IMG/VR virus record: IMGVR_UViG_3300042453_002305
Span: 1-40,157 of that record
DNA length: 40,157 bases
DNA from: a virus
Strand: one strand, 5' to 3'
Shown: piece by piece, positions 31,668-40,157 of the stretch
Layout: every line of letters starts with the position of its first letter
Numbering within the stretch: the first letter of the stretch is position 1
Notes under the pieces: generated by a model
The model's input: only the letters and a program-made list of their open reading frames with translations
Told to the model about the DNA's origin: nothing
Databases searched by the model: none
Program-made: the position numbers and the translations under genes

Positions 31668-31854
31668 CGCCACCTCCGCGCTTGCGCCACTTCACGCCGA
31701 ACAACCATCGGCTAACCACCCGCGCCAACAATGTTGGCTCTTGGCCTTCGCGCGGCGTGTAATTCAAACCGATCCACTCGGCAGTCCATTTGCCCGGCTT
31801 TGGCCAGTCGATGACCTGCACCTTCTGCTTGGTCACCCAATCATCCGGCCCCAT
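31654..31854 (-). CDS. Hypothetical 66-aa protein
   Basis: The product starts at ATG 31854 in the context GGGGGTGGCGATGGGG. It reads MGPDDWVTKQKVQVIDWPKP, GKWTAEWIGLNYTPREGQEP, TLLARVVSRWLFGVKWRKRG. It is basic and Trp-rich with a beta-type start and amphipathic helix, which would suit DNA or membrane contact. The longer upstream frame to 32019 passes through repeat DNA and is not favoured. Function unknown. Confidence 0.6.
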   Translation of the reverse strand: MGPDDWVTKQKVQVIDWPKPGKWTAEWIGLNYTPREGQEPTLLARVVSRWLFGVKWRKRGGGDGVA

Positions 31855-32140
31855 CGCCACCCCCGCTATTCCCGTTTGGACACAACGCACGCGCGCGGGG
31901 GTTTGTCGTTGCAAACATTCCCATCCCCCTCCGTTTTTCCTTCGGCGACCCGCACATGTTCCCCACCCTCTGGGGGGAACTGTGTGGGGCCTTCGGAACG
32001 AAGTGTTGCGCAGTTTCACGCTCAGTTTGACGCACTTTGGACTGCGCGCAGTTCAGTTTCTGGCTATAGGCGCCGAACTGAACTGCGCGCACAGTTTGCG
32101 ACGGTTCTGCGCAGTTAGGTGCTGCGTTCTGCGCGGTCAT
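31841..32140 (-). CDS. Possible 99-aa protein translated across the repeat region
   Basis: An ORF from ATG 32140 overlaps the RepA-type gene stop by four bases (ATGA) and ends inside the start of the next gene, as real genes in this operon do. However, its first half is read through the CAGTT/AACTG repeats, giving an odd Asn-Cys-Ala-Gln/Glu sequence (NAAPNCAEPSQTVRAV, QKLNCAQSKVRQTERET). The second half (GNMCGSPKEKRRGMGMFATT) has no known motif. Either a real gene overlies a cis-acting site, or the overlap is fortuitous. Confidence 0.4.
   Translation of the reverse strand: MTAQNAAPNCAEPSQTVRAVQFGAYSQKLNCAQSKVRQTERETAQHFVPKAPHSSPQRVGNMCGSPKEKRRGMGMFATTNPRARALCPNGNSGGGDGAG
32007..32116. repeat. 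CAGTT repeat cluster with 16-bp inverted repeat (possible origin or control site)
   Basis: Six CAGTT motifs on the plus strand (32011, 32023, 32049, 32054, 32092, 32112) and two on the minus strand (AACTG at 32077 and 32082) lie within 110 bp. TGCGCAGTT occurs as a direct repeat at 32007-32015 and 32108-32116. Between them, 32043-32058 and 32076-32091 are perfect 16-bp inverted copies around a 17-base loop. The cluster starts 21 bases downstream of the RepA-type ATPase gene. Iteron-like repeats beside a replication gene suggest an origin; a strong terminator or operator is also possible. Confidence 0.6.
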
Positions 32141-33372
32141 TCCGTGGGCCTCTTGGCGTTATCCACCAGCACCCCCGGCACGTCGCGGCGCAATTCGGGA
32201 TGGTGGAATGTTGTCTTATGGAGGAGACCGCTTTCAATCCATTGCGCGATAATCTGCTTTGCCCGCGCCTCCTCCATCTCGGCTTCGTCCATCAGCACTT
32301 GCCCGCACCAACGGGACGATCCGCCGCGCTTGGTGGGGCTGTAGAGAATGCCGGGCGACGGACCTGCGGCAATCTGGTCTAGAACTGTGTTCAGGGCCGT
32401 CGGCGTGATGTTGCCGAAGGCGCTGGGCGGCTCCCATGGCACGGCAGCAGCTACGCCTTCCTCGTTGTCCAGTTGGTATTCGATGCGCTGAAACCACTCG
32501 GCATCGTGGAGCGGCGCGTAATTCGACTTGGCGCCATCTACGCGAAAATACTTACCCCGCTCCTTGGGCTGAATACCCAACTTCGCCGCCTGTTCCTCGT
32601 CCATGGTAAGCACAGTGAGAACCACTCGAGCGGCGCCGACGATGCTTGAGGCGCCGCGCAAGCTGTCAGGGTCGCCGGCCGAACTGCCAGCCCCTTTGCG
32701 AGCGTGGTGAATCAGGACAACCGCCATGTTGTGTTCCACGGCCAACGCGCGAAACTTGGCCATGACGGCACGAATGGCAGTGTTGTCGTTCTCTTCCGCG
32801 TCGTGCAGTTCCACCAGCGGGTCTAGGATCAGCACATCCGGCTTCCGTTCGGCAATCATGGTCTCGAGCATCCGCATCGCCGCCGTAAACCCAAGCCGGC
32901 CGGAGATAGGGTCACGCCGCAACAAGGTGCCGGTGCTGTTGGGTCCGATACGCACCACTTTCCCGGCCAGGTCGCCGGGCGCGGCTTCAAACTGGCGCAG
33001 CGTGGCCGACATGCGGCGCTGTTGCTCGAGCCTGTCGTCTTCGACGTTGTAGTTGAAAACCCGCATAGGGCCGGCGGGGAAAAACCGATGCCACCTCTTG
33101 CCAAGAGCAAGAGCGATAGACCACCCCACAAGCAAGCTCGACTTGCCCGCGCTACCGGGGCCGGAAACCACGGTCACAGCGCCGCGCATCAGGTAGCCGG
33201 GCGCAATCCAAGGACGCCGCGTAATCTCCACCTCAAGCCATGGGCCATCGTCCACCCACAAAGCAGCCGGCTTGTTTTTCTCGAGCAAGTCGCCTTGTCG
33301 GTCGTCGTCGTCCGTGTCGGACGGCAGCGCCCAACGGCTATACAGCCCCTCGAGCTTGGCGTGCGCGTTCAT
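32137..33372 (-). CDS. RepA-type hexameric helicase/ATPase
   Basis: The 411-aa product starts at ATG 33372 (ATGA overlap). Walker A is GPGSAGKS (residues 71-78) after MRGAVTVVS; Walker B is VLILD (180-184), followed by PLVELHDAEENDN. A sensor-like VVLIHHARKG (219-227) and the RGASSIVGAARVVLTV block complete the RecA-fold of the RSF1010 RepA/AAA_25 group. These ATPases unwind DNA at origins or load replication proteins. The C-terminal 110 residues look like a helical accessory domain with a winged-helix-like end (AKQIIAQWIESGLLHKTTFH). No primase domain is visible. The repeat cluster follows directly. Confidence 0.85.
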   Translation of the reverse strand: MNAHAKLEGLYSRWALPSDTDDDDRQGDLLEKNKPAALWVDDGPWLEVEITRRPWIAPGYLMRGAVTVVSGPGSAGKSSLLVGWSIALALGKRWHRFFPAGPMRVFNYNVEDDRLEQQRRMSATLRQFEAAPGDLAGKVVRIGPNSTGTLLRRDPISGRLGFTAAMRMLETMIAERKPDVLILDPLVELHDAEENDNTAIRAVMAKFRALAVEHNMAVVLIHHARKGAGSSAGDPDSLRGASSIVGAARVVLTVLTMDEEQAAKLGIQPKERGKYFRVDGAKSNYAPLHDAEWFQRIEYQLDNEEGVAAAVPWEPPSAFGNITPTALNTVLDQIAAGPSPGILYSPTKRGGSSRWCGQVLMDEAEMEEARAKQIIAQWIESGLLHKTTFHHPELRRDVPGVLVDNAKRPTE

Positions 33373-33827
33373 TCCGCCCGTTCCCGTGTCTTCCACCAGT
33401 ATTCCGCCCTCCGGGCTTGCTGGGCTGCTGCTTCGATGGCTGCCGTCAGGATCGGTAACGGTGGCGCAAGCGGGCGCTGGGCTGCCTCTGCGGCGACGAC
33501 GCGCCGGGCCTTCGCCAAGTCGGCGCCGTCGCGGATGGCGATGAATGCCGCTTGCGCTAAATACTCGAGCGTCGCCTGATGCTCGGCTTCCTGCCGCTGC
33601 ATTTCCTCATCAACCGCCGATATCGCCACGTCATCGGCCAGCGCCGGTTCCACCTTGCACTTGCCGGCCAACATGAACGCGATGCCGCGTAGTTCGCGCG
33701 TGGCGTCCTCAACGGTGTAGCGGCCCCAAAACACAGCCGTAACAACGCGCTGCGCCTCCGGCTTTAGATGCGTGCGGATCAACCATCGGTCGATTTGATC
33801 GTTGGTGGCGATGGGTTCCGGTTTCAC
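33369..33827 (-). CDS. Hypothetical helical protein upstream of RepA-type gene
   Basis: Starting at GTG 33827 (GTGA overlap) the product is 152 aa; a much longer frame upstream is a shadow. It is helical: TNDQIDRWLIRTHLKPEAQR, VVTAVFWGRYTVEDATRELR, GIAFMLAGKCKVEPALADDV, then Ala/Glu/Arg-rich to the end. No motif is recognised. Neighbouring ATPase and nuclease suggest a role in replication, for example as a loader or accessory factor, but this is only context. Confidence 0.6.
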   Translation of the reverse strand: MKPEPIATNDQIDRWLIRTHLKPEAQRVVTAVFWGRYTVEDATRELRGIAFMLAGKCKVEPALADDVAISAVDEEMQRQEAEHQATLEYLAQAAFIAIRDGADLAKARRVVAAEAAQRPLAPPLPILTAAIEAAAQQARRAEYWWKTRERAE

Positions 33828-34153: not shown

Positions 34154-34656
34154 AACATCGTCTCCGCCCGCGCCTTCGCCAGCTTCGCCAGCGTCCGCGC
34201 CGTGGGCTTGGCGGCACGGGCACGCGGCGGCTTGTTGTGGCCGCGTGTGGGCACGTCCAGCGCCGCATCGTGGTGCATCGCCGCCAGCCGCCAGCCGGGC
34301 GCCAACGGGATGCCGTGGCGTTCCAGGGCCTCGCCGAGTTGTTCGACGGAGCGGCAAACGGCGTATCCGTGCTGCAACGTCTCCATGGCGCGCTGCATCG
34401 CCACTTGTGCGTCACTCTGCTTATTGGCGCCGGCCTTCAACTCGGCCATGAAGGCAAATCCCGGCGCGAGAATCAGCACGTCGCCAAGGCCCTGCTTCAC
34501 GCCCTGGCTTTGGAGGTGCTGCCACTCCCGCGCCCGCTGCTCGGCCGTGCCCGCATGTTTCCGGCCGTGTTCGATGGCTGTGAACCAACACGGCGGTAGA
34601 AGGTGCGATGCGAGGAACATGCGGCAGCGGGAGCGCAGGCGAGCTTCTGGTATCAT
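34150..34656 (-). CDS. VRR-NUC-like (PD-(D/E)XK) nuclease
   Basis: The 168-aa product has HLQSQGVKQGLGDVLILAPG then FAFMAELKAGANKQSDAQ: Asp59, Glu72 and Lys74 form the nuclease triad, with Ser/Gln after it as in VRR-NUC proteins (the G..D...........E.K.......Q pattern). The N-terminal helix-rich part and EHGRKHA also fit. VRR-NUC proteins act on branched or structured DNA; here recombination or replication is likely. The C-terminal 50 residues are basic and disordered (TRGHNKPPRARAAKPTART). Start ATG 34656 (TGATG); TTG 34659 is possible. Confidence 0.75.
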   Translation of the reverse strand: MIPEARLRSRCRMFLASHLLPPCWFTAIEHGRKHAGTAEQRAREWQHLQSQGVKQGLGDVLILAPGFAFMAELKAGANKQSDAQVAMQRAMETLQHGYAVCRSVEQLGEALERHGIPLAPGWRLAAMHHDAALDVPTRGHNKPPRARAAKPTARTLAKLAKARAETMF

Positions 34657-35567
34657 CAATCAGTAGCCTCGAACAAATCCACCGCGCCCCGCTCGGCGGC
34701 GGCTAGATGGCCTGCCGCTTGGCGCCAGTATTCTAACTTCAATTCTGTTCCGACAAATCTCCGCCGCTTCCGCAGCGTGACCACGCCCTCTGAACCGATG
34801 CCCGCAAACGGGCTCCATACAACGTCACCGGGGTTGCTCCACAATTCCACGCAACGCTCCGTGAGGTCCAGCGGCATGGGGCAAATGTGCTTTTCGTCCC
34901 CTGGCGCCCGAATAGCGTTCAAAACGTCAGTCTCGCGCGTGTGCATCCATACAGGCGATGCGGCTTCCTGCCACCAGGGCAGCGGGTAGTCTTCGCTGCG
35001 CTTCTCCACCGGCAGCACGGCGCCCGCGTCGTCTTCGGAGGCCCATTTGCGGAACACGACAAAATATTCGGGCAGGCCCTGCCGCGAGAATGACGAGTCC
35101 GCCCGCAGTTGCTTGTAAAGCAGCCCGTGCGCCTTCGTTTTCGTCATCTCGCGCACTGGGCAACGCCAGACGGTAATACGGGAGTGGAACGTAAAGCCGG
35201 CTTCCTCATGCTCTCGTATCAGCATGCCGGGGAAATCGCGGAGGCCCGCCTTGCCGCGCTGGTTTTTGTAGAATACCAGATCCTTGCAATGCACGGCCAC
35301 GATCCGGCCGGGCCGCATCACGCGATACATTTCGCGCACAAGGAACCGGTAGTGTTCCAGAAACTCGGCGTCATCGGCGCAGTTGCCCATATCCGCCTCG
35401 CTGTCATTGTAGATATAAAGACCAGAAAACGGCGGTGAATATACGGCGAGGTCAACACTGTTGTCGGGCATCTGCCGCGCCACATCCACGCAGTCCGCGT
35501 GGTAGAGTGCCCAATTGTCGCCATGTGCTTCGTTTAAGCAGCGGACTACACGAGTGTTGTCAACCAT
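34656..35567 (-). CDS. DNA methyltransferase (N4/N6 amino type)
   Basis: The 303-aa product has LYHADCVDVARQMPDNSVDL then AVYSPPFSGL (catalytic motif IV SPPF, residues 44-47), followed by REMYRVMRPGRIVAVHCKDL, and near residue 255 a motif I block DVVWSPFAGIGSEGVVTLRK, with GTELKLEYW. Motif IV before motif I is the beta arrangement; SPP rather than DPP favours N4-cytosine. The centre contains a likely target-recognition part (TKTKAHGLLYKQLRADSSFS). It may protect phage DNA from restriction or mark it. It begins 22 bases inside the helicase gene end; no cognate restriction enzyme is present. Confidence 0.85.
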   Translation of the reverse strand: MVDNTRVVRCLNEAHGDNWALYHADCVDVARQMPDNSVDLAVYSPPFSGLYIYNDSEADMGNCADDAEFLEHYRFLVREMYRVMRPGRIVAVHCKDLVFYKNQRGKAGLRDFPGMLIREHEEAGFTFHSRITVWRCPVREMTKTKAHGLLYKQLRADSSFSRQGLPEYFVVFRKWASEDDAGAVLPVEKRSEDYPLPWWQEAASPVWMHTRETDVLNAIRAPGDEKHICPMPLDLTERCVELWSNPGDVVWSPFAGIGSEGVVTLRKRRRFVGTELKLEYWRQAAGHLAAAERGAVDLFEATD

Positions 35568-36925
35568 GACGGCATTCTCCCGTTGTGTTTGGCGTCGTAT
35601 GGAATTTTCACTTGGCTTGCGTGAGCGCGAGCCCGCCGCATCGCTTCGCTCATCGCCCGCTTCATCGTCAGATGATCTCCCGCCTTCCGATCAATCACGC
35701 GGCCGATTTGATCCTCACCCTCGGCAACGATCAGATGCACATCGACGGGCCGCGTCTGGCCAAAGCGCCAGCACCGCCGCACGGCCTGATACCATGCCTC
35801 GTAGCTGAAACTGCGGCCCACGAACGCCATCCGCGCCGCGTGCTGCCAGTTCATGCCCATGCCGCACACGGATGGCTTGGAAATCAAAACCCGCGTGGCG
35901 CCTTCTGAGAACGCCGCCAGCGCGGACTCTTTGCGGTCTGGCGCATGCGATCCGCGAACTTCGACGGCATCGGGAATACGCTTGGCCAACGCGTCAGCTT
36001 CGTAATCGGTATCGCACCAGACAATCCACGGTTCTTTAGATTGCTCATGCACCAGCGCGGCTACGGCATCCGCCCGCGCGTCGGCTGTCTGCCGCTTCAC
36101 GTCGTGAATGTTTGTTGCGCTAAGGTCGGAAAGAAACAAAGCGCCAGCCGGCGCGCGGATATCTCCGGCGGCCTTGTGTCGGATGGTCCGCAGTTCTGGT
36201 AGCACGAAACGCGAGCCGTCAAAACCAAGATCATCTGGCGTTTCCGCGCATCGCGCCCAACTCGCCATCCAGTCCCAAAACAATGCCTCCGCATGGCCCT
36301 TAATGCGGTAACGGCCCATTTGGGTTTGATCGGAAACAAACCAGCGGGCAAGCATTTCGTTGCTGGCCATGATGCCCAAAAACTCGGCGTGCTGGCCCAG
36401 CTCCATATGATCATTCGGCGCCGGGGTTGCCGTGCTGGCCAGTTTGAACCGATGGCCGGCAAACGACGCGATCAACGCCCGAGTCGTGGCGCCCGTGAAG
36501 CTCTTGAGGATAGAGCTTTCGTCGAGCGATACCGCACCGAACTGCACCGTATCCAGCGCGCCGAGGCGGTCGTAATTGCATACATTGATGCCGTCACGCG
36601 CTTCGTCTTGGCTGCGGATCACGCGGACGTTGTAGCCCAGCGCCAGCCCCTCGCGCTCGATCTGCCGGGCCACGGCCAGCGGCGTCAGAAGCAACGCGCG
36701 CCCGTTCGTGGCTGCGGCGGCTTGATGGCACCATTCAAGCTGAATGCGGGTCTTGCCGAGGCCAGTATCCAGAAACATCGCAGCCCGGCCCTGGCGCAAA
36801 GCGAACGCCACGCACTCGGCCTGATAGTCGAATAGGTGCGCCGGCATGGCGCCGGGCTCGATGCCCATGGCCTGCGGCTTAGGGGCTTTGCCGGCAAGGA
36901 ACGCCGCGTAATCAGGATGCAGCAT
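35546..36925 (-). CDS. SNF2-type superfamily 2 helicase
   Basis: The 459-aa product shows LFDYQAECVAFALRQGRAAM, Walker A DTGLGKT (53-59), motif Ia LLLTPLAVARQIERE, motif II DESS, motif III LASTATPAPND, then a second RecA domain with WIVWCDTDYEADALAKRI, LISKPSVCGMGMNWQHAARM and motif VI QAVRRCWRFGQTRPVDVHLI. The 'Q..GR..R.GQ....V....' type of motif VI places it near SNF2/Rad54-like remodellers. Such helicases with an adjacent methyltransferase are frequent in phages; roles in replication, repair or removing bound proteins are possible. Start ATG 36925 (TGATG); TTG 36928 is possible. Confidence 0.86.
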   Translation of the reverse strand: MLHPDYAAFLAGKAPKPQAMGIEPGAMPAHLFDYQAECVAFALRQGRAAMFLDTGLGKTRIQLEWCHQAAAATNGRALLLTPLAVARQIEREGLALGYNVRVIRSQDEARDGINVCNYDRLGALDTVQFGAVSLDESSILKSFTGATTRALIASFAGHRFKLASTATPAPNDHMELGQHAEFLGIMASNEMLARWFVSDQTQMGRYRIKGHAEALFWDWMASWARCAETPDDLGFDGSRFVLPELRTIRHKAAGDIRAPAGALFLSDLSATNIHDVKRQTADARADAVAALVHEQSKEPWIVWCDTDYEADALAKRIPDAVEVRGSHAPDRKESALAAFSEGATRVLISKPSVCGMGMNWQHAARMAFVGRSFSYEAWYQAVRRCWRFGQTRPVDVHLIVAEGEDQIGRVIDRKAGDHLTMKRAMSEAMRRARAHASQVKIPYDAKHNGRMPSWLTTLV

Positions 36926-37131
36926 CAATAAAACCCCCCAGCCTTATCCACCCGCTCCACCTTCCACGCATCCGGGTAATACGCCGCCACCATCGACAGC
37001 CCGATCACCCGCTCGATCACCTCCCGCCCGTCTGGCAGGAACACGCGGTATTCGATCATCGGGACGGCCTTAAGCCCGGTTGCGGCGCGGCGCTTCGCCT
37101 CGTAAGCGGATTGTTTGGCTGCGTCACTCAT
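36925..37131 (-). CDS. Small basic protein
   Basis: The 68-aa product reads MSDAAKQSAYEAKRRAATGL, KAVPMIEYRVFLPDGREVIE, RVIGLSMVAAYYPDAWKVER. A basic helix is followed by a small beta domain. No motif is recognised. It is coupled on both sides (ATGA with the gene above, TGATG with the helicase). Confidence 0.6.
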   Translation of the reverse strand: MSDAAKQSAYEAKRRAATGLKAVPMIEYRVFLPDGREVIERVIGLSMVAAYYPDAWKVERVDKAGGFY

Positions 37132-37775
37132 GCACTGGCCCTCAACGCGACAACCTCAATCGCCGTCAGCCTCAGCCCGGCAATCACTGATTCCACGCCG
37201 ATGCCGCGCTGCACCAGCAACCGCGCCCGCACCAGGCGCTCTGTCTCGCGCAGGCCCGGCGCCGCAGGCTCTACAGGCGCCTCGATCTCATCTTGCAGCG
37301 CCGCGATACGATGCCGGTGCGCCTGCCGCATCTTCTGCAACAACCGCCGCTGCGCTGCAGCGCGCCGCTTGCCATCACACACCGCCGGCCGCTTCCCCAG
37401 GCGCATCAACTGGGCCTTCGCGCGGATCGCGCCCAGCGTGCGGCGAAACATCGACTCCAGTTCCGAATTTAGCACCGTGCTATCGGGCCACACCTGCCGC
37501 AAATGGTGGGCTTCGGCTTCTGTCCAACGGCCGTAATGGCTGGTTCCCTCAAAAAGCACCCCCGGCGCGCACGAAGCGGCCGGAGGTGAGTTTAGGGAGG
37601 AGTGCCGGGGATCGGACGCCGGAGCGCCCCCGGCCGCGCTTCCAACCGGGGGGAGAAACCCGCCGGCGCCGAACTCTCCACCAGCGCGCGGGAACTGCCC
37701 CCGGCCCGCGCTGGTGGCAACCACACCCGCAGGCGTGCCCGCGCCCGCGATATCAGCGGAGTGGTTGACTCTCAT
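37128..37775 (-). CDS. Homeodomain-like (GcrA/SANT-type) DNA-binding protein
   Basis: The 215-aa product has a disordered Gly/Ala/Pro N-terminus (about 80 residues), then HYGRWTEAEAHHLRQVWPDS, TVLNSELESMFRRTLGAIRA, KAQLMRLGKRP. This tri-helical 'W(T/S)..E...L...W......I...L.RT..AI..KA..LGL' pattern is shared by SANT/Myb and GcrA-like HTH domains. The rest is basic helix and an Arg-rich coiled coil. It probably binds DNA and may regulate early genes. It follows the Cro-like gene (ATGA overlap). Confidence 0.68.
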   Translation of the reverse strand: MRVNHSADIAGAGTPAGVVATSAGRGQFPRAGGEFGAGGFLPPVGSAAGGAPASDPRHSSLNSPPAASCAPGVLFEGTSHYGRWTEAEAHHLRQVWPDSTVLNSELESMFRRTLGAIRAKAQLMRLGKRPAVCDGKRRAAAQRRLLQKMRQAHRHRIAALQDEIEAPVEPAAPGLRETERLVRARLLVQRGIGVESVIAGLRLTAIEVVALRASA

Positions 37776-37972
37776 GGCGCCCTCACAGGCACCAGATCGC
37801 GGACCTTGACGGCGCCGCTTGTGATTTCCTCAATCTTGACCGCTGTATGAAGCGGCGGCGTCCTGCGACCTGTCACCCAGCCGTGCGCCGTGGAAATTGG
37901 CACGCCCACATCGGCTGCGAATTGCGTCAGCCGGATACGGTGCTCGAACAGATATTCGCGGAGGGGTGTCAT
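37772..37972 (-). CDS. Cro/YdaS-like regulator
   Basis: The 66-aa product MTPLREYLFEHRIRLTQFAA, DVGVPISTAHGWVTGRRTPP, LHTAVKIEEITSGAVKVRDL then VPVRAP is a compact HTH of the Cro/YdaS kind. The recognition part is LTQFAADVGVPISTAHGWVTG and the final 'I...T.G.V...DL.P' is typical of DNA-binding phage regulators. The ATG has no ribosome-binding site and follows a possible -10 by only 7 bases, so the mRNA may be leaderless. The longer frame upstream is not favoured. It probably acts on the divergent promoters at 37973-38113. Confidence 0.8.
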   Translation of the reverse strand: MTPLREYLFEHRIRLTQFAADVGVPISTAHGWVTGRRTPPLHTAVKIEEITSGAVKVRDLVPVRAP

Positions 37973-38113
37973 GGCGCGAATATTGTCACCGCGCGCAATC
38001 CGGCGCAAGGGGAATTGCAGGGACACGGGAAAAATTTGCGAAGCGCGTAAAAACCTCTTGCGTGGTGTTTCGCGGAATGCCAAACTCTCATTGTCAAACA
38101 AACGGAGGACGCC
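37973..38113. promoter_or_regulatory. Divergent early control region
   Basis: Leftward promoter: -35 TTGCGC (minus strand, 38008-38003), 17-bp spacer, -10 CAATAT (37985-37980). Rightward promoter: -35 TTGCGT (38058-38063), 17-bp spacer, -10 CAAACT (38081-38086). The rightward start near 38093 leads to GGAGG (38104-38108) and ATG 38114. Candidate operator parts: TTGTCA near each start site (37983-37988 and 38091-38096) and GCGCG...CGCGC at 37974-37994. Both -35 boxes share TTGCG, unlike the TTGACT of the island. Strengths are guesses. Confidence 0.5.
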
Positions 38114-38398
38114 ATGGCTTACCCCGACAACTTCAACGCCCGCGCCTACGACGATGGCCCCGGCGGCACCTACCGCCCCGAACCGCCGCTGATTGTGGCC
38201 GACCGTGACGACATCGACGCCATGCAGAAGGCCCGCGCGTGGTTGGTTGTGTCGCTCACCAGCCTGCGGCAGAACCCGTGGGATTTCGACAGCACGGAAA
38301 TCCCGCCGCACCACATGTTGGTGGCCGATGCCGAGGCGTTTCTTGAGCAGATGGACAAGGCGATTCAGCAGGCGCGGCTTAGCCGGGAGTGGCTGTGA
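38114..38398 (+). CDS. First gene of the rightward early block, hypothetical
   Basis: The 94-aa product (GGAGG ribosome-binding site, ATG 38114) begins [20 protein letters not shown], with a helical core [20 protein letters not shown] and [20 protein letters not shown]. It is the first gene expressed from the rightward promoter, where phages often place host-interaction proteins. No family recognised. ATGA overlap with the pentapeptide gene. Confidence 0.65.
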
Positions 38399-39111
38399 TG
38401 ACGAACCCCCGCGACAACCTGCCGCACATTCTGGAAGAACATCGGAAGTGGCGCCTGGGCGACGGTGGCGCCTGCGCCTATCTGGCCCGCGCCAATCTGG
38501 CCTGCGCCTATCTGGCCGGCGCCGATCTGGCCGGCGCCTATCTGGCCGGCGCCGATCTGGCCGGCGCCTATATGGCCCGCGCCGATCTGGCCGGCGCCGA
38601 TCTGGCCGGCGCCAATCTGGCCGGCGCCAATCTGGCCTGCGCCTATCTGGCCGGCGCCAATCTGGACCGCGCCGATCTGGCCCTCGCCAATCTGGCCCGC
38701 GCCGATCTGGCCGGCGCCGATCTGGCCGGCGCCGATCTGGCCGGCGCCGATCTGGCCCGCGCCAATCTGGCCGGCGCCAATCTGGCCGGCGCCAATCTGG
38801 CCGGCGCCGATCTGGCCGGCGCCTATCTGGCCCGCGCCAATCTGGCCGGCGCCAATCTGGCCGGCGCCAATCTGGCCTGCGCCGATCTGGCCTCGCAGCA
38901 CATCATCGACGGTGGCCAGCGAATCGACGGTTATCGCTTTGTCGGCTGGATCAAAGGCGACGCCCTGATGATCCGAGCCGGCTGCCGCAACATGACGCTG
39001 GCAGAATACCGCGTGCACAACGCAAAGCGCGAGGGCGTGGCGATGCGCGACGAGACGACTTCGATCTTGGACCATATCGAGCGCGTGGCGCGCGTGCGGG
39101 GGCTGATCTGA
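38398..39111 (+). CDS. Pentapeptide-repeat protein
   Basis: The 237-aa product begins [20 protein letters not shown], has about 28 tandem pentapeptides of the A(G/R/C)A(D/N/Y)L type at about residues 25-164, and a C-terminal domain [36 protein letters not shown] and a terminal helix. Pentapeptide repeats form a right-handed square beta-helix that can mimic DNA. Known members protect from gyrase inhibition or act as binders. I infer a DNA-mimic or binding scaffold but no target. The underlying 15-bp repeats (GGCGCCGATCTGGCC type) keep other frames open, which are not genes. Confidence 0.88.
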
Positions 39112-39646: not shown

Positions 39647-40032
39647 CCAGCCGCACATTGACGCTGGCGACGTTGAAGAAAAAAGGCGCGTGCAAGGAAC
39701 AGGTTGTATTGTTCCGTAAGATGTTCGGCAAATCCGTCGAGATCACGGAGGCGCTGTGCGTGGAACACGCGGCGGTGTTCAGTTGGGGCTGGGCGGCGGA
39801 AAATCTGCTGACGGCGGCGGCACTGGCCGAATACCAGCGCGTGAGGGCGGCGGCACTGGCCGAATACCAGCGCGTGACGGCGGCGGCACTGGCCGAATGC
39901 GAGCGCGTGACGGCGCCGGCATGGGCCGAATACGCGCGCGTGACGGCGGCGGCACTGGCCGAATACGAGCGCGTGAAGGCGGCAACATGGGCGCGCGCAT
40001 ACATTGGAGATAAGGAGGCGGGCGATGACTAG
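39643..40032 (+). CDS. Hendecad-repeat phage protein (copy A)
   Basis: The 129-aa product starts at ATG 39643 (ATGA overlap; longer upstream frame is a shadow). It opens TSRTLTLATLKKKGACKEQV then VLFRKMFGKSVEITEALCVE and WGWAAENLLT, followed by about five 11-residue repeats (AAALAEYQRV type), and ends ARAYIGDKEAGDD. Except for repeat number and end it is the same protein as copy B (40025 through base 369). The N-terminal DNA differs by a single base over more than 190 bases, so the duplication is recent. Function unknown; the long helix could be a spacer or binding rod. Confidence 0.85.
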   Translation: MTSRTLTLATLKKKGACKEQVVLFRKMFGKSVEITEALCVEHAAVFSWGWAAENLLTAAALAEYQRVRAAALAEYQRVTAAALAECERVTAPAWAEYARVTAAALAEYERVKAATWARAYIGDKEAGDD

Positions 40033-40157
40033 CCGCACATTGACGCTGGCGACGTTGAAGAAAAAAGGCGCGTGCAAGGAACAGGTTGTATTGTTCCGTA
40101 AGATGTTCGGCAAATCCGTCGAGATCACGGAGGCGCTGTGCGTGGAACACGCGGCGG
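40025..40157 (+). CDS. 5' part of hendecad-repeat phage protein (copy B), continuing at base 1
   Basis: ATG 40025 overlaps the end of copy A by eight bases. The frame reads MTSRTLTLATLKKKGACKEQ VVLFRKMFGKSVEITEALCV and runs off the contig end. Positions 40100-40157 equal 1-58 and the frame continues at base 1 without interruption, giving a 147-aa product with about seven 11-residue repeats. See the entry at 1-369 for its C-terminal part. Confidence 0.82.
   Translation, partial: MTSRTLTLATLKKKGACKEQVVLFRKMFGKSVEITEALCVEHAA
40100..40157 (+). repeat. 58-bp terminal overlap with contig start
   Basis: These 58 bases are identical to 1-58. The simplest reading is assembly overlap of a circular (or circularly permuted, terminally redundant) genome. 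The same bases also occur at 39718-39775, 382 bp upstream, because of the tandem gene duplication. An assembler could therefore have closed or collapsed the array incorrectly, and a third copy cannot be excluded. Confidence 0.8.

Follow-up and report, generated by a model that had tools for sequence, protein, structure and literature searches.

A Short-Repeat Array Directly 3′ of a RepA-Type Helicase Gene as a Putative Iteron Origin of Replication in Phages

The question raised by this locus is whether a dense cluster of CAGTT/AACTG motifs, lying against the end of a gene for a replication ATPase and read through by a small ORF, is a DNA element at which the phage starts its replication, or something else. 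Our answer, built on comparison with relatives, is that the array is likely where the phage starts its replication, an origin whose iterons the RepA-type helicase itself would bind through its C-terminal winged helix.

The Repeat Array and Its Genomic Context

The window, i.e., the whole stretch of DNA that was analyzed, is a 40,157-bp IMG/VR phage record classed as linear; its first and last 58 bases (1–58 and 40100–40157) form an identical direct terminal repeat, so the genome is probably complete and circularly closed. A gene made of 33-bp tandem repeats is found at both ends (92–336 and 39809–39983), and the window is probably a complete genome with this repetitive gene duplicated. Elsewhere, an ORF (38365–39075, minus strand) with a weak match to virion structural PHROGs contains a 15-bp tandem repeat in 28 copies (GCCGGCGCCAATCTG, 38470–38892), and genes for a Mu Gam-like end-protection protein and then a RecT-like annealing protein (810–2268) lie on the plus strand, in the direction opposite to that of the replication genes.

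A sequence-only reading of this DNA had pointed to eight CAGTT/AACTG motifs in 110 bp next to a RepA-type ATPase gene, and this description holds in all its parts. The eight copies lie at 32011, 32023, 32049, 32054, 32076, 32081, 32092, and 32112 (a span of 106 bp); the chance expectation, given as about 0.2 per 110 bp, is 0.13–0.22 when computed from the window; TGCGCAGTT is present as a direct repeat on both flanks (32007–32015 and 32108–32116); the central inverted repeat is perfect, with 16 of 16 positions complementary between 32043–32058 and 32076–32091 and a 17-nt loop; and the adjoining gene is indeed of the RepA type. This gene ends at 32137 on the minus strand, which places the cluster on its 3′ side. 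The motif is found 80 times in the whole window versus 48 expected (sd 6.7), and the cluster is its densest occurrence; eight copies of any 5-mer within 110 bp, anywhere in the 40 kb, were seen in one of 100 whole-window dinucleotide shuffles.

A better description of the cluster is that of about six clear and two degenerate copies of a unit of about 10 bp, aAACTGnGCr, spaced by 10–12 bp. The whole window holds three perfect copies of this unit, all inside the cluster, and three copies with one mismatch are located beside them. The parts of the array are as follows:

32007–32116, minus strand: whole iteron array (putative replication origin), 3′ of repA
32108–32117, minus strand: iteron 1, TAACTGCGCA, in the orientation of repA
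32096–32107, minus strand: degenerate iteron position GAACCGTCGCAA, read from the sequence and inferred from the ~10-bp phase
32088–32097, minus strand: iteron 2, AAACTGTGCG
32080–32089, plus strand: iteron 3, GAACTGCGCG, inverted, outer part of the 16-bp inverted repeat
32076–32091, no strand: right arm of the perfect 16-bp inverted repeat, with two inverted AACTG
32062–32074, no strand: central core GGCTATAGGCGCC in the inverted-repeat loop, with CTATAG at 32064–32069
32043–32058, no strand: left arm of the perfect 16-bp inverted repeat, holding an iteron GAACTGCGCG at 32045–32054
32031–32039, minus strand: degenerate iteron CAAAGTGCG, from the motif scan
32019–32028, minus strand: iteron AAACTGAGCG
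32007–32016, minus strand: iteron AAACTGCGCA, 12 bp from its neighbor AAACTGAGCG

A minimum of the cumulative GC skew near 32.0 kb had been put forward as a check of the origin reading. It did not come out: the minimum is near 38–39 kb, on a curve that follows the strand of the genes.

The RepA-Type Helicase and Its Predicted Winged Helix

Two features of the adjoining gene matter for what follows:

32137–33396, minus strand: RepA-type helicase gene (protein P0002, 419 aa), AAA_25 ATPase with a C-terminal winged helix
32137–32403, minus strand: part coding for the C-terminal winged helix (residues ~332–419), the putative iteron-reading domain

The protein matches PF13481 (E 9e-33) and phrog_25693 (E 3e-94), and its only clear solved relative is RepA of RSF1010 (E 2e-24, rank 1 in Foldseek); both the modeled fold and the sequence point to a RecA-fold helicase core of the RSF1010 RepA family. 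In an AlphaFold2 model made with 20 relatives, the core of the protein is confident, and pLDDT is about 86–94 over most of the C-terminal domain. The elements predicted there (helices 332–344, 365–372, and 376–389; strands 392–399 and 404–411) follow the helix-helix-helix-strand-strand order of a winged helix across residues 332–419, so that the predicted fold is the one expected of an initiator with a C-terminal winged helix.

In most relatives, an N-terminal Prim-Pol is fused to AAA_25. None was found in the window's phage or in the 40.6-kb record of lineage L018, and the array persists in these two phages of about 40 kb. An upstream ORF of 348 aa was considered as a split Prim-Pol and showed no similarity. 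Just upstream of repA and in the same direction, 34656–36928 carries genes for a DNA methyltransferase (N6_N4_Mtase) and a helicase-C protein.

Recurrence of the Array in Relatives

About 70 relatives came out of alignment-based scans of viral contigs; they were reduced to 36 lineages once sequences more than 90% identical were removed. In 30 of these lineages, the highest copy number of a single 6-mer along the locus is reached in the 200 nt after the repA stop codon, and a short-repeat array 3′ of repA reaches p < 0.05 in 32 of the 36; the signal is weak in L032 and L082, and a 7-mer variant of the scoring is weaker for L032–L042. The units themselves vary by lineage (CCGACGCA, AAACCCTGTG, TTCCGTGCA, and others). 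As in iteron origins, the repeats are replicon-specific, with the perfect units of the window confined to the array, and near the initiator gene.

We kept relatives from bacterial genomes, which played no part in forming the idea, as a hold-out set; a first scan of bacterial-genome contigs gave no relative, and a second, broader alignment found them. Seven of the eight close ones rank top for an array right after repA (Gluconacetobacter, two Gluconobacter, two Acetobacter, Rhodovarius, and one Hyphomicrobium MAG), with the restriction that the Rhodovarius array is the same as that of an IMG/VR record (L047), which makes it not fully independent; the eighth, L094, is a broken gene. Further away, arrays were found in three distant relatives (Synergistales, Paractinoplanes, and Micromonospora), and none was found after the distant AAA_25 proteins L083–L086, L096, L098, and L100, despite wHTH-like C-termini in the last two. 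Likewise, no repeat array follows the gene of L045 (L045:4134–4734), a Prim-Pol/AAA_25 protein with a winged-helix-like C-terminus, whose origin may have moved or be different in kind.

Among named phages, a DNA search gave no match, and for those with distant RepA relatives (L011–L015) the 200 nt that follow the gene hold no array. These 200 nt are not outstanding in the cultured cyanophage Mae-Yong1326-1 either, where an array sits further 3′: all six ACTGGCGCA sites (at most one mismatch) of the 9.1-kb locus are within 194 bp, 139–332 nt 3′ of the RepA-type gene. In a comparison made post hoc, the same unit was seen together with a similar wing, QRKxRxGVxVV, in lineage L021, with 31% identity in the ATPase.

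The anatomy of the array is also shared. Across 35 lineages, the spacing of same-orientation copies has its mode at 11–12 bp, about one helical turn, which gives the short, regularly spaced, and helically phased direct repeats of iteron origins. Arrays frequently run through three direct copies, an inverted copy, a core, and then more copies; two sets of iterons surround a center directly 3′ of the gene, as in the origins of phage-inducible chromosomal islands (PICIs). The core resembles CCTATAGG or CCCTAAGGG, with CTATAG at +40 to +100 in 7 lineages versus 0.0 expected and CCCTA in 14 versus 1.5 expected, and the arrays fold strongly (median z of −5.7 versus −0.35 in controls). We found no AT-rich melting region, the AT profile being flat at about 0.35–0.50 across the array; the AT-rich unwinding region of iteron origins and the AT-rich center of PICI-type origins are both lacking, and we therefore say that the array works like an iteron origin rather than rank it as a proven member of the class. 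Taken together, the comparison across relatives strongly supports the iteron-type origin that the sequence-only reading had suggested, origin function being what we infer from it. As a side observation, a relative with 61% identity carries, 3′ of its array, two adjacent genes with similar openings (L003:6303–7234; LPADVAVLTPYI and SAEQLAEIAPYV), likely duplicated DNA-binding genes.

Covariation of the Array with the Winged Helix

If the winged helix reads the iterons, the two should change together. In a partial Mantel test, array similarity is associated with that of the C-terminal domain given the ATPase (r 0.19, p 0.0005) and more weakly with that of the ATPase given the C-terminal domain (r 0.13, p 0.011), figures that ignore the phylogenetic tree, treat partly dependent lineages, and are inflated by linked co-inheritance because the array and the winged-helix coding sequence adjoin. 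In these comparisons, the array sequence tracks the winged helix better than it tracks the ATPase. Two pairs of lineages illustrate the point: L052 and L053 have ATPases that are 98% identical and C-termini that are 63% identical, L030 and L032 have 96% and 62%, respectively, and the units differ within both pairs. Between L030 and L032, DNA identity is high on both sides and falls only across the winged helix and the array, to return to 83–96% past it. At the level of a motif, the wing PRRGH is found in all seven lineages with a CGACGC unit and in none of the 28 others.

The Overlapping ORF and Alternative Explanations

One has to keep in mind that the array is also read through by an ORF:

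31841–32140, minus strand: ORF of 99 aa with an ATGA overlap with repA, open throughout the array; unconserved at the protein level and with no family match

Both this ORF and its ATGA-overlapping start had been noticed from the sequence, and conservation of the repeats against that of the ORF had been proposed as a check. The outcome favors DNA. In three close pairs, the array frame has no excess of synonymous change (P = 0.69, 0.55, and 0.95), versus P = 0.001 at the end of repA in two of these pairs, the third having only two changes there; the ORF gives no sign of protein-level selection in these alignments. The nearest relative, L001, is identical over repA and the array and therefore cannot tell constraint on coding from constraint on DNA. 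The odds of a change are about half as high in units as in spacers (odds ratio 0.53, p 0.0005), a bias that is inconsistent by pair, being absent in L061/L063 and reversed in L023/L024. Open frames across the array are somewhat more frequent than expected from shuffles (Fisher p 4e-7) and, in about ten lineages, the frame crossing the array ends in the ATGA of the next gene; translation may be carried through the origin.

A small repetitive protein, with the DNA repeats as by-products of its coding sequence, would account for the ATGA-coupled ORF and the excess of open frames; it is the least probable of the alternatives we weighed, given the lack of synonymous excess, the frame-breaking indels in close pairs, the lineages without such an ORF (L019 and L049), the lack of a family match, and a spacing of 11 bp that shifts the frame from one repeat to the next. 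The strong hairpins and those ORFs coupled to the next gene could also be those of a structured RNA element between repA and the next gene (an attenuator, a translational coupler, or a retroregulator). We hold this to be quite improbable, if less so than the small protein: scans for Rfam families, tRNAs, promoters, and terminators found nothing, which leaves the element without a terminator-like site or an Rfam match, the many direct repeats on one strand would not contribute to a hairpin, and it is the unit that tracks a DNA-binding domain, with no conserved RNA sequence.

Among readings of the repeats as protein-binding DNA or as template, priming is the rival with the best claim, and still an unlikely one. 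Prim-Pol/AAA_25 fusions make up most of the relatives and the Prim-Pol of NrS-1 starts at a specific 8-mer, TTTGGTTA (PMC8718748), so that the repeats could be primase start sites read on single strands; but they are present without Prim-Pol in the window's phage and in the 40.6-kb record, their duplex-phased spacing of 11–12 bp in both orientations suits a reader of double-stranded DNA, and the units differ where ATPases are 96–98% identical but winged helices differ. Winged helices commonly regulate transcription, a repressor-like gene is located at 37772–38314, and terL is about 3 kb away, all of which would fit an operator for autoregulation or for a transcription regulator, or another cis site, for instance for packaging or partition, that takes no part in initiation. 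To this we give slightly less credence than to the RNA element, as the array is 3′ of repA with no sigma-70 promoter-like site nearby and covaries with RepA's own domain, beside repA across diverse relatives.

Comparison with Known Replication Origins

A layout close to that of our origin reading is found in PICIs (SaPI, EcCICFT073), in which a primase and an initiator, fused in some cases, are followed directly 3′ by an origin made of two iteron sets flanking a central element (PMC6092414). Gene, 3′ origin, and iterons around a center are common to both; in our case, however, the helicase is RSF1010-RepA-like, the center has a CTATAG-like core without AT-richness, and the genome is that of a complete phage rather than a satellite, having capsid and terminase genes of its own (the window encodes a terminase, a portal, and a major head protein). 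With RSF1010 oriV and its RepA-RepB′-RepC proteins, the window shares a RepA-homologous helicase, iterons, and inverted repeats; a separate RepC reads the iterons of RSF1010 (PMC4234260), whereas here we propose as a reader a winged helix fused to the helicase.

Primase, helicase, and a C-terminal winged helix are combined in a single protein in P4 alpha, pRN1 ORF904, and BIP-1, and a stem-loop just 3′ of the gene is the origin, or a candidate for it, in pRN1 and BIP-1 (PMC4234260). What sets these systems apart from the window's phage is the Toprim primase in P4, the SF3 helicase in pRN1 and BIP-1, and, in pRN1, a stem-loop origin that has no iterons. As for covariation, the precedent is the RepA/ori pair of the Vibrio cholerae PLE, in which the DNA-binding domain covaries with the iterons and is swapped as a module, the cognate pairing having been demonstrated by origin-swap experiments (PMC8263062). 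The PLE initiator is, in contrast, an unrelated RepA_N protein with an N-terminal DNA-binding domain, and its iterons are about 30 bp long and not adjacent in the same way.

Proposed Mechanism and Significance

In the mechanism that we propose, the winged helix of the RepA-type (AAA_25) protein would bind the ~10-bp iterons on either side of the CTATAG core, the bound subunits would promote assembly or loading of the RecA-fold helicase ring, and the duplex would open at the core and inverted repeat. A primase would then start synthesis: the fused Prim-Pol in most relatives and probably a host enzyme in the window's phage. Binding, melting, and priming are steps that we infer from the features described above.

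With less assurance than for the origin itself, we consider it on balance probable, as a joint statement, that RepA-type helicases with a private 3′ iteron array form widespread, self-contained phage replicon cassettes, in which winged helix and array change together into mutually incompatible passwords. Alphaproteobacterial prophages would carry such cassettes and so, on weaker evidence, would a cultured Microcystis phage, Actinomycetota, and Synergistales. Our literature search, which covered part of the literature, found no description of such an array in RepA-type phages.

If the array is the origin, that of many uncultured phages of the RepA family could be located in the stretch after the RepA-type gene and its recognition unit read from sequence, and the layout described as unique to PICIs would also hold for complete phages whose helicase is of an unrelated type. 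The natural pairings of a winged helix with its iteron sequence, some 20 or more in number, may make a recognition code learnable, and one could ask whether the diversity of units reflects incompatibility or escape from parasites, as for PLE and ICP1.
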